Source: a virus
Reading direction: 5' to 3' (one strand)
DNA: 23,738 bases
IMG/VR virus record: IMGVR_UViG_3300027985_000409
Span: 1-23,738 of that record
Part shown: piece by piece, positions 5,967 through 11,024 of the stretch
How positions within the stretch are numbered: the first letter of the stretch is position 1
How the letters are laid out: every line of letters begins with the position of its first letter
The notes under the pieces: model-generated
Told to the model about the DNA's origin: nothing
What the model saw: only the letters and a program-made list of their open reading frames with translations
Database searches by the model: none
Translations under genes and position numbers: made by a program

Positions 5967-6042
5967 TGTTCGAAAGGATCGAGAAAGTGTTCGAAAGGAG
6001 CGAGAATCTGTACGAAAGGAAGCCCGAAAGTGTTCGAGTAGG
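5967..6042 (+). repeat. Iteron-like array, 21-bp period, four copies
   Basis: TGTTCGAAAGGA at 5967 and 5988, TGTACGAAAGGA at 6009, and degenerate TGTTCGAGTAGG at 6031. Spacing is 21, 21 and 22 bases, two helical turns, placing copies on one DNA face. A secondary CGAGAA follows copies 1 and 2. Such phased repeats are typical of initiator or repressor binding sites. Confidence 0.75.
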
Positions 6043-6192
6043 CTACCCTAACCAAAATGATCTTGCTCGGGATAAGTGTCAGGAATAGTTATCTTCGATT
6101 ACGCACAGTAACTTCAGTCAATGGAACTCAGCGTCAGTAATCCGGTACCACCAAGCACGCAGCCCCCTCAGAATCAGACGGCTAGCCGTAAT

Positions 6193-6269
6193 CACATAAG
6201 TGGCGTGGTTCTGTCAAGCCGAGGCGCTTTTCCTCGGCTTGACAGGTTCCGCCGCTTATGTGATAGGCT
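6193..6269. promoter_or_regulatory. Palindrome 1 with divergent promoters
   Basis: 14-bp perfect arms CTGTCAAGCCGAGG (6211-6224) and its complement (6232-6245) around loop CGCTTTT. Outer arms are CACATAAG (6193-6200) and CTTATGTG (6255-6262). Each arm holds TTGACA facing outward. Plus strand: TTGACA 6239-6244, 19-base spacer, TAGGCT 6264-6269. Minus strand: TTGACA 6217-6212 facing a poorer -10 near TTACGG. The leftward promoter could feed the iteron region and the left arm. Confidence 0.7.
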
Positions 6270-6658: not shown

Positions 6659-6713
6659 GATTGAGTGCTCCTTCCAGCCGGACGGGACCTTCCCATCTGG
6701 CGCGGATAAGCGC

Positions 6714-6789
6714 AACACATAAGCGTAGCTTGTCAAGGCGAAGCGCTCTTCTTCGCCTTGACAAGCGTTAAGCGCTTATGTGTTACGCT
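6714..6789. promoter_or_regulatory. Palindrome 2 with divergent promoters
   Basis: 15-bp perfect arms CTTGTCAAGGCGAAG (6729-6743) and complement (6751-6765) around loop CGCTCTT. Outer arms are CACATAAGCG (6716-6725) and CGCTTATGTG (6773/4-6782). Plus strand: TTGACA 6758-6763, then TACGCT 6784-6789 at 20 bases. Minus strand: TTGACA 6736-6731 facing the 6658 gene, with no clear -10. Same architecture as palindrome 1, about 520 bases away; consensus arm TGTCAAGSCGARG. Confidence 0.7.
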
Positions 6790-6971
6790 GGTGCGCTAGA
6801 TGGATATAGCGGGGCTGCACCAAGGCGTGTTCTATGTTGTTGAGACACGTAAGCAACCTGGTGTATTGGTACTGGTGGGTGGAGTAGGTAGGTAGGTGGC
6901 TGTCGTTGGCCAACACCACCACAAGAAGCAGCAACGCATGTCGTAAAAGTTGTCGGAGTCCCAGTATAAAG

Positions 6972-7060
6972 TTGTTGCGGCTTACCGCTCTCAAATTTTT
7001 TTTTTGTTGCGGCTTACCGCTCTCAAAATTTTTTTTTGTTTTTGCTCTCAAAAATTATTT
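6972..7060 (+). repeat. Tandem repeats with phased T tracts
   Basis: TTGTTGCGGCTTACCGCTCT followed by CAAA and a run of about ten T occurs twice, 32 bases apart. A shortened third unit (GCTCTCAAAAATTATTTTT) starts at 7044. Runs spaced about three helical turns should bend the DNA just upstream of the regulator promoter. The GCGG-CTTA-CCGC core plus T run also resembles a weak terminator. Confidence 0.75.
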
Positions 7061-7065
7061 TTCAT

Positions 7066-7094
7066 TTGACATGGGTATATTCCTGTGCTATGCT
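7066..7094 (+). promoter_or_regulatory. Promoter of the regulator gene (leaderless transcript)
   Basis: TTGACA (7066-7071), 17-base spacer, TATGCT (7089-7094). The ATG is at 7101, only six bases after the -10 box, so transcription should begin at or next to the start codon. The preceding A/T-rich stretch could act as an UP element. Confidence 0.85.
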
Positions 7095-7100
7095 TCCAGT

Positions 7101-7811
7101 ATGTTCAGGGAACTTCGTGAGGGTCTTGGCCTCACCCGGTCGGACCTCGCGGTGCTCACCGGGCGGGGTGTGAATTATCTCCTTAAAGCAGAACAGTTAT
7201 GCTTTCCAACGCCACCTGTCTGTTTACTAGAATTCTATCGTACTGATGGCTTACTGGATCGTTTTCAAACTGATCCTGAGCCAGCAACCGCTCAGAAACT
7301 CATTAAGCACTTCCCCAGCGCCGCAGGCTTATTCCCCGGCGGGGTAGAGGTGATTAATTTCGGGGCCCATTCAACGACTGCCCTGTCGTGGGTCGAAAAC
7401 ATCACTAGTTATCAAAGTATACCTAAAGAGATATTGGAGGGTTGGTACTACGAAGCGCAGTTGGCTGTTCGCCGGGAGTGGCTTCAGAACTGGTTACCAA
7501 GTAGGTTGCTGAAACCAACTACGTTTAGTAGAAGCTGGGTACACGCTAGCATTTTCAGCACAGATTCGCACCTACTTCACAGCATTAAGCGGCCGACACA
7601 ATACGAGTTGAGTAAAGGCTTAGCGGTACCAGCAAGTGCGGTACACCGTTTTGAAACCAAAGGTCAGCAGGCAGGCAGTATTCGTATCGCTTTAGAACAA
7701 CTTATAGACTACGTTGAAAGCGGGGAGTACGTACTGAACGCGCCGGTGGCTAATGACACTTACCCGGTGTGGGAGTTGGTTGACCGGCTGAAAGCAATGG
7801 TGGTGAATTGA
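7101..7811 (+). CDS. Transcription regulator with two helix-turn-helix regions
   Basis: 236 residues. I start at ATG 7101 because a helix-turn-helix follows at once and a consensus promoter ends six bases upstream; the longer frame to 6906 runs through the promoter. Residues 3-31 (RELREGLGLTRSDLAVLTGR onward) match the XRE/Cro pattern. Residues about 164-206 (RPTQYELSKGLAVPASAVHR, then FETKGQQAGSIRIALEQLI) look like a second, divergent copy. The middle (70-150) is aromatic and unassigned. With two DNA-binding units it could bridge the nearby palindromes or repeats. It is the first gene of the rightward cluster. Whether it represses (lysogeny) or activates late genes is not shown; no integrase is in this window. 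Confidence 0.85.
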   Translation: MFRELREGLGLTRSDLAVLTGRGVNYLLKAEQLCFPTPPVCLLEFYRTDGLLDRFQTDPEPATAQKLIKHFPSAAGLFPGGVEVINFGAHSTTALSWVENITSYQSIPKEILEGWYYEAQLAVRREWLQNWLPSRLLKPTTFSRSWVHASIFSTDSHLLHSIKRPTQYELSKGLAVPASAVHRFETKGQQAGSIRIALEQLIDYVESGEYVLNAPVANDTYPVWELVDRLKAMVVN

Positions 7812-8047
7812 TGGTGGTAGTGATTTGGGGTGGGCCGGATGACGGTAAAGAAATGGTTGTTGCTGACGGATCACGGACGCTTAACGTAATGGAACGCGGT
7901 GAAGTCCCGGTAACGCCTTACGAGCCGGACCCTAGCAAGCCACCGGAACAGTTATACCGGATTAGACAGTGCCCGATACTTTACCCGCCCGGTAAAAGAA
8001 TGCCGGTAGTAGATTACTACGCAGGGAGGCTGATACGGGGTGAGTGA
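7811..8047 (+). CDS. Small GGPxDG-motif phage protein (78 residues)
   Basis: ATG at 7811 overlaps the regulator stop as TGATG, implying coupled translation; no separate ribosome site. The product begins MVVVIWGGPDDGKEMVVADG. A GGPxDG motif near the N-terminus is common in short phage proteins of unknown role, often near terminase genes. The rest is Pro-rich with no secondary motif (PYEPDPSKPPEQLYRIRQCP). It overlaps the small terminase by 8 bases. Confidence 0.75.
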   Translation: MVVVIWGGPDDGKEMVVADGSRTLNVMERGEVPVTPYEPDPSKPPEQLYRIRQCPILYPPGKRMPVVDYYAGRLIRGE

Positions 8048-8783
8048 AAACCAAACACTGACACCGGAGCAGTACGAGTTCCTGCTATACATGGAACAAA
8101 CATACTGGAAACGCTCCCTCCTACCGACGCTTGAACAGCTTAAGGCTGAAGGGGTAGAGGTCACTGAAGACTTCTACCTGTCGTGTTGGACTAACCCTGC
8201 GTTCGTAGCGAACCTTAAGGGCCGGGGTTTACCGGACACCGTGATGCTTCACATCCTCGAAACTATTGGGGTGGGGGATAAGCGCCCGGCGTTCTCAAAG
8301 TACGTTCTGACGGAGCAGCAGATGACTGTTGCTAATATGCTATTAGATGTTCACGACAGCCGTGCTCGTGTTAAGAAGTTGACTGAGGCAGGGGTCTCCC
8401 TGTCGGAATTCAACGCATGGCTTAAGGACCCAGCATACCAGGCTTACTGTCGGGAACGGGCGGAACAGTTACTTCTGGAAAACCAGTCTGATGCGCATAT
8501 TGCACTGATCGGACGGGTTCGACAGGGTGACTTAGGAGCAATTAAATACTTCAATGCAATTACAGGCCGCTTCGCGGAAAGCCGTGCAAGCGGCGTTACT
8601 ATTAATAACAACTTCGGAAGTGAACTCCTACGGGGTGTAGTTGAAGTAATTCAGCGACATGTAAAGGACCCAGAAACACTACGTGCGATTGCAGATGACA
8701 TTCTTGTCCTTCAAGCAGGTCATACACAACAGTCAGCACAGCCAACTAGAGCTATTGCAGGGCAGGTTATAGAATATGGCTGA
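8040..8783 (+). CDS. terS: Terminase small subunit (probable)
   Basis: 247 residues from a GTG at 8040, with GGGAGG about 11 bases before. The central part (TEQQMTVANMLLDVHDSRAR, then KKLTEAGVSLSEFNAWLKDP and AYQAYCRERAEQL) matches the helix-turn-helix pattern of phBC6A51-type small terminases: a Leu-rich helix, a turn, then WLKDPxF/YQ. It is followed by an oligomerising helical region (RQGDLGAIKYFNAITGRFAE) and a polar C-terminus. It recognises phage DNA and presents it to the large subunit. Position two genes before TerL supports the call. The pac or cos sequence was not identified. Confidence 0.78.
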   Translation: MSENQTLTPEQYEFLLYMEQTYWKRSLLPTLEQLKAEGVEVTEDFYLSCWTNPAFVANLKGRGLPDTVMLHILETIGVGDKRPAFSKYVLTEQQMTVANMLLDVHDSRARVKKLTEAGVSLSEFNAWLKDPAYQAYCRERAEQLLLENQSDAHIALIGRVRQGDLGAIKYFNAITGRFAESRASGVTINNNFGSELLRGVVEVIQRHVKDPETLRAIADDILVLQAGHTQQSAQPTRAIAGQVIEYG

Positions 8784-9136: not shown

Positions 9137-9463
9137 ATGTCTGCAATGTCGGTTGAGGACATTGACGAGGGAGGTACAGGGGAGCCTGTCGGGAGACAGG
9201 GTTTTCCACCATCACCTTTACTGATTAACTTACCACTTATTTCAAACGCCAAATGTAAAGGTATTGATAACTTACATTTTCCAGAGAACGGGAGATCCCT
9301 TAACAGCTTAGCAACAATTAAAGCAATCGCAATGTGCAAAGAATGCGATGGTATGGAAGCCTGTCGGAACTTTGCACTTGAAAATAATGAGCGGTTCGGT
9401 ATCTGGGGCGGAACCACTCCTATGAACAGAAGATTCTTAAGGAAAATGCTAGGATATGCCTAA
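9137..9463 (+). CDS. WhiB-like iron-sulfur transcription regulator
   Basis: 108 residues from ATG 9137 with AAGGAG at 9121; the in-frame extension to 8999 overlaps the previous gene and is rejected. The four WhiB cysteines are present as C-x26-C-x2-C-x5-C (NAKCKG, then MCKECDGMEAC), followed by ALENNERFGIWGG with the diagnostic G-I/V-W-G-G turn and a basic tail (MNRRFLRKM). WhiB proteins bind a 4Fe-4S cluster, usually contact sigma factor region 4, and are confined to actinobacteria and their phages. It sits between the terminase subunits and overlaps the TerL start by 8 bases, so it should be made with late genes. A perfect CCTGTCGGG forms part of a hairpin near its 5' end (9185-9200). Confidence 0.92.
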   Translation: MSAMSVEDIDEGGTGEPVGRQGFPPSPLLINLPLISNAKCKGIDNLHFPENGRSLNSLATIKAIAMCKECDGMEACRNFALENNERFGIWGGTTPMNRRFLRKMLGYA

Positions 9464-11024
9464 ACCTGATCCAGTACGCCAAGACAACTTCCTGCTATCT
9501 CTCGGTGAGTCATTACGCCGACAGGCGGGGTCACCGAACATTAACAGTTACATTCCCCATGCGAAACAGGTGGACTTTCACAGTTCACCAGCTAAAACGC
9601 GCCTGTATATTGGGGGTAACCGTTCAGGAAAGTCATTCGGCTCTATCGCTGAGTGCGTGTTTTGGCTGCGTAAGGATCACCCATACCGTAGAATTCCTGT
9701 GCCCGATTGGGAGCCCTGTCGGGGTCGTATTAATACAGTCGACTACATCAACGGATGGGAAAAGATTATTCAACCATTGTTGAAGCAACTGATGCCTCCG
9801 AGCCTTCTAATCAATGGCTCTTGGGAGGATAGTTACCATAAACAAGAGCATGTCCTGAATTGTTCAAACGGCTCAATGCTGGAAATCCTATCTTACGAAT
9901 CTGATCTGGATAAATTCGCTGGTACTTCACGCCACTTCATTAGCTATGACGAGGAACCGCCCGAGGCCATCTACACTGAGAATAAAGCCCGTCTGATTGA
10001 TACAGGCGGGCATCAGTGGTTTGCTATGACCCCTGTCGAGGGCATGTCGTGGGTCTATGATGCTATTTTCTTACCTGGCGAAGAAGGTAAGCCGGGCTTC
10101 CATAACACTACTGTGTCGATGGAAGAGAACCCACATCTTAATATGGCAGAGGTTCAGGAGTTCTTAGATGGACTCGACGAAGAAGAACGGAAAGCCCGTG
10201 GACAGGGAATTTTCGTTGAGTTCGGTGGTAGGATCTATAAGTCTTTCGACCCACACCCGGGCGGTATCCACGTTGTCGATAAAGAAAACCTACGTATGCC
10301 GCGTAATATTCCTATCGGGGTTAGTCTCGACCATGGGTACAACAACCCGACAGCGGTATACTGGCACGCTATTCTACCAGAAGGTAGAATCTTAACATAC
10401 CATGAGCACTACCTGTCGGGAGCAACAGTTCGTGAGCATGCTGCGATTATTCATAAGTTTAACAGGGCTCACCGTATTGAACCAACTATTTGGGTTGCCG
10501 ATCCTAGCATTAGGAATACTGATCCGATTACAGGCACGAGTATTCATCAGGAATACTTAAAGTACGGTATTCCGTGGATGCTGGGCAACAATGATGTTAA
10601 AGCCGGCATTGAGCGGGTGAACTCGTACATTAAACCGCGTGGTGCGGCAAAGCGTCCTATGTGGTCAGTCACTAAAGATTGCGTCAACATGAGAAGGGAA
10701 ATGGCGCGATATAAGTGGAAGACCTACACATCTAAGAAGTTGAATGCTGAATACAACAAGATGGAAGAGCCTCATAAGAAGGATGATCATAGTTGTGATA
10801 GTCTCAGGTATTTTTTAATGTCTCGGCCCGACCTTGGTTCTATCTTCACAGAAGAAACACAAGGCCGGGCCGAGGCATTGAAAAACTGGGAAGGTGCTGT
10901 AAGGTCTACAGATGGTGACTTTACAGTTACAACGTTACGTGCAGGTGAGTATGAGGCGTTAGCCTCTGGGGGTAGGGATTACGCTCACCGGGAGGGTGAT
11001 GACATGCTGGGTGGTCTTTGGTAG
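9456..11024 (+). CDS. terL: Terminase large subunit
   Basis: 522 residues. The ATPase domain has Walker A GGNRSGKS (53-60), Walker B FISYDEE (161-167) and a coupling motif MTP (191-193). The C-terminal RNase H-like nuclease has acidic residues at D292 (SLDHGYNNP), D349 (IWVADPS) and DDHSCDS (443-449). It translocates DNA into the prohead through the portal and cuts it. The length is normal for the family. The start at 9456 lies inside the end of the WhiB gene and is preceded by AAGGAA/AGGAT. Two perfect CCTGTCGGG copies lie inside it (9715, 10412). Its last 65 bases overlap a possible antisense gene. Confidence 0.97.
   Translation: MPKPDPVRQDNFLLSLGESLRRQAGSPNINSYIPHAKQVDFHSSPAKTRLYIGGNRSGKSFGSIAECVFWLRKDHPYRRIPVPDWEPCRGRINTVDYINGWEKIIQPLLKQLMPPSLLINGSWEDSYHKQEHVLNCSNGSMLEILSYESDLDKFAGTSRHFISYDEEPPEAIYTENKARLIDTGGHQWFAMTPVEGMSWVYDAIFLPGEEGKPGFHNTTVSMEENPHLNMAEVQEFLDGLDEEERKARGQGIFVEFGGRIYKSFDPHPGGIHVVDKENLRMPRNIPIGVSLDHGYNNPTAVYWHAILPEGRILTYHEHYLSGATVREHAAIIHKFNRAHRIEPTIWVADPSIRNTDPITGTSIHQEYLKYGIPWMLGNNDVKAGIERVNSYIKPRGAAKRPMWSVTKDCVNMRREMARYKWKTYTSKKLNAEYNKMEEPHKKDDHSCDSLRYFLMSRPDLGSIFTEETQGRAEALKNWEGAVRSTDGDFTVTTLRAGEYEALASGGRDYAHREGDDMLGGLW

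Follow-up and report, generated by a model that had tools for sequence, protein, structure and literature searches.

The gene at positions 7101–7811 (+ strand) of a 23.7-kb viral contig (hereafter the window, the whole stretch of DNA analysed) raises the question of how the message of a phage regulator is started and what its product controls. An earlier note on the sequence had proposed that the gene is leaderless, that its 236-aa product carries two helix-turn-helix (HTH) regions, and that this arrangement fits a protein bridging separated palindromes.

The gene, its neighbourhood and its relatives

The genes in the left arm of the window point leftward, and those in the right arm point rightward and encode terminase, portal, scaffold-like, capsid and tail proteins. 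The terminase and capsid proteins are about 35–46% identical to those of Arthrobacter phage Jasmine, Microbacterium phage Shocker and Cellulosimicrobium phage DS1 (42% for TerL, 37–46% for the capsid). The terminase, the portal and the major capsid protein, which together characterize Jasmine-like actinobacterial podoviruses, are all related to those of that group. As judged from these comparisons, the window phage is podovirus-like and a distant relative of the Arthrobacter podovirus Jasmine. Every isolate with a related capsid and a named host infects an actinobacterium; the relatives comprise phages of Arthrobacter, Microbacterium and Cellulosimicrobium and one Streptomyces contig, in agreement with the actinobacterial setting assumed in the earlier note.

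The regulator gene is the first substantial rightward gene. Its stop codon (7809–7811, +) can overlap the start of a small ORF (7811–8047, +) in the sequence TGATG, through which the small ORF may be translationally coupled to the regulator. A gene resembling those for terminase small subunits follows (8040–8783, +; phrog_24579, E 1.1e-8; Pfam HTH_Tnp_1_2, E 4.8e-8), and the gene for the large subunit (9456–11024, +) belongs to the same operon. The regulator gene heads the packaging and structural operon, with the small terminase gene two genes further downstream. A search against Rfam gave no match, and inspection of the window by eye revealed no integrase.

Direct homology searches with the window protein (tblastn against phages; viral contigs) returned no relatives. 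The loci of relatives were fetched by terminase and capsid alignments, and every ORF in them was then searched. With phmmer a few close relatives (one of them truncated) and two weak ones were found, and HMM iteration converged on 64 ORFs, 55 of them non-identical, which are full-length or truncated by the contig and form 45 clusters at 60% identity. The family was gathered by homology, not by promoter. It includes Jasmine gp2, Shocker gp10, the first rightward gene of DS1 and a member on a 46-kb contig from a Streptomyces griseosporeus assembly, the only clear gene-bearing relative in a genome-contig scan with the terminase alignment. Protein identity across the family is about 15–45%, and nearly all members are unannotated, the rest being called hypothetical proteins. 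In all 42 members tested the large terminase gene follows 1.8–6.4 kb downstream, on the same strand, and most of these members have a neighbour on the leftward strand. By homology, the gene is a member of a previously unrecognised family of two-HTH phage regulators. Leaderless messages have precedents in phage repressors (lambda cI) and in actinobacterial genes; no description of the two-HTH family, of its conserved leaderless start or of its position at the genome end was found in the literature searched.

Structure prediction from the single sequence was useless (pLDDT 41), and a model based on the family alignment, used without its DS1 and Shocker rows, reached a mean pLDDT of 83 and a pTM of 0.78 and displays two helical domains. 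The helices of residues 2–57 fold into a Cro/C1-type HTH, for which CylR2 (Z 6.4), Stl and phage repressors gave the best structural matches. The HTH proper (HTH 1, residues 2–31; 7104–7193, +) matches Pfam weakly in the window protein alone and strongly as a family profile, which also matches SinR and the 434 repressor; single-member HTH matches are weak, with 28 of the 44 members hitting Pfam HTH_3 at E≤0.1. Model helices at residues about 156–206 (7566–7718, +) form a second HTH, also of Cro/C1 type, and its profile alone matches XRE HTHs in the PDB, namely PezA (E 2.8e-4), MBF1, HipB, ClgR and Stl. Aligned to each other with hhalign, the two HTH profiles match with a probability of 95.6%. 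Between them runs a long linker helix (residues 109–130; 7425–7490, +) containing Y116, the most conserved residue. A Foldseek search of the PDB gave no significant match for the model; the assignment of HTH 2 draws on the profile and the model. Among viral models, Foldseek ranked proteins of Shocker and GurgleFerb highest, both apparently belonging to the family. The S24 domain responsible for C-terminal dimerisation and cleavage is absent among the Pfam and PDB matches listed, and HTH 2 occupies the C-terminus. The protein thus combines an N-terminal HTH of the Cro/C1 (XRE) class with a second, C-terminal one. The two HTH regions had been placed correctly in the earlier note; the predicted structure contains two DNA-binding folds and the profiles agree with it, and on this combined evidence we regard both as real.

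Promoter and start codon

Upstream of the gene, a −35 hexamer TTGACA (7066–7071, +) is followed by a 17-bp spacer, the −10 hexamer TATGCT (7089–7094), six bases (7095–7100) and the ATG at 7101. The TG of an extended −10 (TGC plus TATGCT; 7086–7094, +) stands one base before TATGCT. No Shine-Dalgarno core of at least four bases is present 5–20 nt upstream of the ATG at 7101. Both features on which the earlier note had built, the −10 box six bases before the ATG and the lack of a ribosome site, are therefore present in the window. A TANNNT −10 box centred ∼10–12 bp before the start codon marks leaderless genes, which are most frequent in Actinobacteria and Deinococcus-Thermus (PMC3160421). The window gene has the box in this position and no Shine-Dalgarno site, and from the spacing and the published TANNNT rule transcription is predicted to start at the A of the ATG (7101, +).

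A promoter match alone is not rare: 4 kb of sequence contained two promoter-like sites where shuffling predicts 2.8, so that a single match is not significant and conservation has to carry the claim. Start codons of the family members were chosen from the protein alignment, except that a few were assigned manually because a Shine-Dalgarno site or a clear ATG further upstream indicated a different start, and the leaderless calls depend partly on this choice. In 22 of the 45 clusters exactly six bases separate a TAnnnT box from the start, and the other distances average about 1.5 (binomial p 6e-21, a count in which homologous upstream regions are not fully independent). Three further clusters carry CAGAAT or GATACT at the six-base position, and three carry TAnnnT at seven bases. 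The box at six bases together with a −35 is found in 16 of 45 family clusters and in 14 of 1786 control ORFs, and TTGACA itself is kept in most leaderless relatives. Shine-Dalgarno cores occur in one of the 24 leaderless-type clusters and in 16 of the remaining 21 (Fisher 8e-7), and ATG is the start codon in 27 of 28 leaderless-type members as opposed to 8 of 18 others. When the bases upstream of the start were simply counted in 46 members, with no selection for promoters, the TG (−15/−14), TAnnnT (−12 to −7) and the TTG of the −35 became visible, and position −1 showed a pyrimidine and no G. The spacing of TAnnnT and the exclusion of G from −1 are as they should be for a transcript whose first base is the A of the ATG.

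It appears, therefore, that the mRNA of the regulator begins exactly at the start codon. The leaderless expression proposed in the earlier note is supported by the fixed spacing, the exclusion of Shine-Dalgarno sites, the nearly exclusive use of ATG and the pyrimidine at −1, and the underlying promoter geometry is, as read from the alignments, conserved in over half of the relatives analysed. The leaderless label is scattered over the protein tree, where it needs 13 changes, at least eight of which are forced by well supported branches; the leaderless state, as traced on this tree, has been regained or lost repeatedly and interchanges with leadered forms.

Several other sites in these genomes deserve mention. 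L151 is without the TACCCT box kept by its close relatives L152 and L004 and has AAGGAACATGATG instead, which looks like a recent leaderless-to-leadered switch. Shocker gp2 (L004 550) is a second leaderless-looking gene (TACCCT-AACCGC-ATG) directly after the Shocker terminal repeat; TACCCT also occurs upstream of leadered Shocker genes. In the window, 21-nt tandem repeats at 5967–6060 (TGTTCGAAAGGA.CGAGAA) are followed by TACCCT and, seven bases on, by the ATG of a short ORF (∼27 codons), which may be another leaderless start or the remnant of a promoter.

The predicted genome end and candidate operators

In 26 of 46 members a bipartite element, ATGTYGY-N-TYCC (ATGTTG(T/C)...TTCC(A)), lies between the divergent operons and precedes the regulator start by 67–336 nt (for instance at 1306–1330 in L001 and 454–484 in L004). 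The form ATGTTGT-N-TTTCC is confined to the + strand and was found 16 times against 0.03 expected, a figure that is optimistic since the pattern was written after the sequences had been seen. The direct terminal repeats of Jasmine, Adat and Shocker stop about one base after the TTCCA of the element, and that of Casserole stops a few nucleotides earlier, inside the element. This coincidence in sequenced relatives suggests that the element probably marks the packaging end. The corresponding sequence in the window is ATGTCGTAAAAGTTGTCGGAGTCCCAG (6938–6964, +), which places the predicted end at about 6964 and the promoter of the regulator just inside it. In Shocker the regulator gene is about 3.1 kb from the terminus.

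Tandem AT-rich direct repeats (6972–7062, +) lie upstream of the −35 in the window, with 32-nt units at 6972–7003 and 7004–7035 and a partial third at 7031–7062. The 24-nt exact repeat in this upstream region was not reached in 100 random windows, and the full-length 18-nt repeat core occurs within the window only at 6972–7062. The repeats are candidates for an operator, an UP element or a packaging site. Tandem AT-rich repeats precede the −35 in several relatives too, with a different unit in each, and the excess of repeats reaches p<0.05 in 12 of 43 loci (combined 2e-4). Upstream of other members GTATAC is found 17 times against 1.6 expected. Both the repeats and the GTATAC sites, the latter overlapping the −10 consensus, are present in part of the family only; each of the two is a possible operator. 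In L018, L027, L032 and L036, tandem or palindromic TAGTATACTA/GTATAC sites lie upstream of the gene between divergent promoters and may act as operators in this subgroup.

Two similar nested perfect palindromes, at 6191–6264 and 6702–6796, have inner stems of 14 and 16 bp with 7-nt loops and outer arms that carry CTTATGTG; they flank a small leftward ORF (6428 to about 6660). The same scan detected no nested palindromes that could be shared operators in the loci of 14 relatives, L007 having similar-looking ones by eye. A protein bridging separated palindromes, as envisaged in the earlier note, thus finds no support, and the recurring element beside the promoter is instead the tandem AT-rich repeats.

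Another sequence, CCTGTCGGG, is strongly over-represented in the window (41 sites with up to one mismatch against 4.2 expected), for example at 1447, 3915, 5601, 9185, 9715, 10412 and 11245. The sites are mostly oriented along transcription, lie within genes as well as between them, and are also frequent in L157. As a simple operator of the regulator CCTGTCGGG was rejected, its copies being spread genome-wide and mostly inside genes.

A proposed role of the regulator and comparison with known systems

The gene family, the two HTHs, the position of the gene and the conserved promoter geometry are established, and from them we propose, with a probability of roughly 0.62, that a two-HTH regulator made from a leaderless mRNA at the head of the rightward operon binds its own promoter region and tunes divergent transcription. 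The host sigma-70-type polymerase would start at the A of the ATG, and the 70S ribosome would initiate directly on the 5′ AUG. Because this promoter opens the packaging and structural operon, where rightward and leftward genes part, and lies just within the predicted terminus, the regulator would be the first product of rightward transcription. The protein, with a Cro/C1-type HTH at each end and a helical linker between them, would then bind the region that controls its own gene, by way of the tandem AT-rich repeats and, in certain relatives, of GTATAC palindromes, and once bound would set the timing or level of divergent transcription. It would in this way regulate itself, plausibly as a repressor.

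An activator of the late or leftward genes, rather than an autorepressor, is possible though doubtful. Late-gene activators such as RinA/ArpU are found just upstream of terS in Gram-positive phages, and the regulator gene has the same placement relative to the terminase genes; its own promoter, however, comes close to the consensus, has an extended −10 and would apparently work without an activator.

The predicted packaging end lies beside the repeats, so these might serve packaging instead, and the protein could mainly act on packaging or the genome end, its two HTHs binding the tandem repeats beside the terminus with transcriptional control secondary or absent. The genome-end element of Jasmine, Adat and Shocker (Casserole within a few nucleotides) is indeed just upstream of the gene in the 26 members, the window repeats stand between that element and the promoter, and the small terminase gene is two genes downstream. 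Yet a separate small terminase gene with an HTH of its own is present, Cro/C1-type HTHs typically belong to transcription regulators, and the distance between gene and terminus in Shocker fits poorly; we consider a packaging protein unlikely. Rather improbable, too, is a combination of the two roles, in which the two-headed regulator, its leaderless promoter abutting the genome end, would bind the repeats between terminus and promoter and couple genome entry or end-processing to the onset of rightward transcription.

Transcription could also start further upstream and yield a leader that lacks a Shine-Dalgarno site, with the promoter close to the ATG being coincidental or serving downstream genes. 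The window ORF is open upstream as far as 6888 and contains an in-frame ATG at 7071. The latter overlaps the end of the −35, is not conserved and was ruled out as the start of the regulator, and the closest relatives have a stop codon 1–4 codons upstream of the conserved start. With the exact spacing kept over proteins about 15–45% identical, the Shine-Dalgarno exclusion and the pyrimidine at −1 also against it, a leadered message is very unlikely. A temperate-phage repressor that maintains lysogeny, in the manner of lambda CI, would share the Cro/C1-type HTHs, the divergent promoter region and the leaderless message (PMC3160421), but is hardly probable for a gene that heads a structural operon in a window with no integrase seen by eye, the more so as the genome-contig scan gave a single clear gene-bearing relative and only Galaxy among the Arthrobacter phages of PMC5513430 has an integrase, by which mark Jasmine is not temperate.

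One regulator family thus appears to have kept its transcription start on the start codon itself in phages that have diverged widely. To our knowledge, most leaderless phage regulators described are isolated cases, and almost no regulators are annotated in actinobacterial podoviruses, for which a likely control protein can now be named. Since the conserved leaderless start is repeatedly swapped for Shine-Dalgarno forms, selection for leaderless translation is testable in culturable phages (Jasmine, Adat, Shocker), and the conserved genome-end element would let ends be predicted in uncultured relatives.

Closest to the window gene are phrog_37477/Jasmine gp2 and relatives, unannotated members of the same family at about 15–22% identity to the window protein, which have the N- and C-terminal HTHs and the leaderless geometry and, as predicted for the window gene, come first in the rightward direction after the terminal repeat. 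The RinA/ArpU-type late regulators likewise lie just upstream of terminase genes, and their HTH type differs from that of the window regulator. The lambda cI message from PRM is leaderless (PMC3160421), and with lambda-type repressors the window gene shares a Cro/C1-type HTH, a leaderless mRNA and a promoter adjoining a divergent operon. It differs from them in having two HTHs in one chain and no cleavable C-terminal domain seen, and in heading a packaging and structural operon, probably of lytic podoviruses, rather than an immunity region. In the leaderless TANNNT genes of Actinobacteria and Deinococcus (PMC3160421, PMC12340547) the −10 box stands ∼12 bp before the start with no Shine-Dalgarno site, as it does here; unlike in those genes, the arrangement is conserved within one phage gene family and has switched repeatedly to leadered forms.
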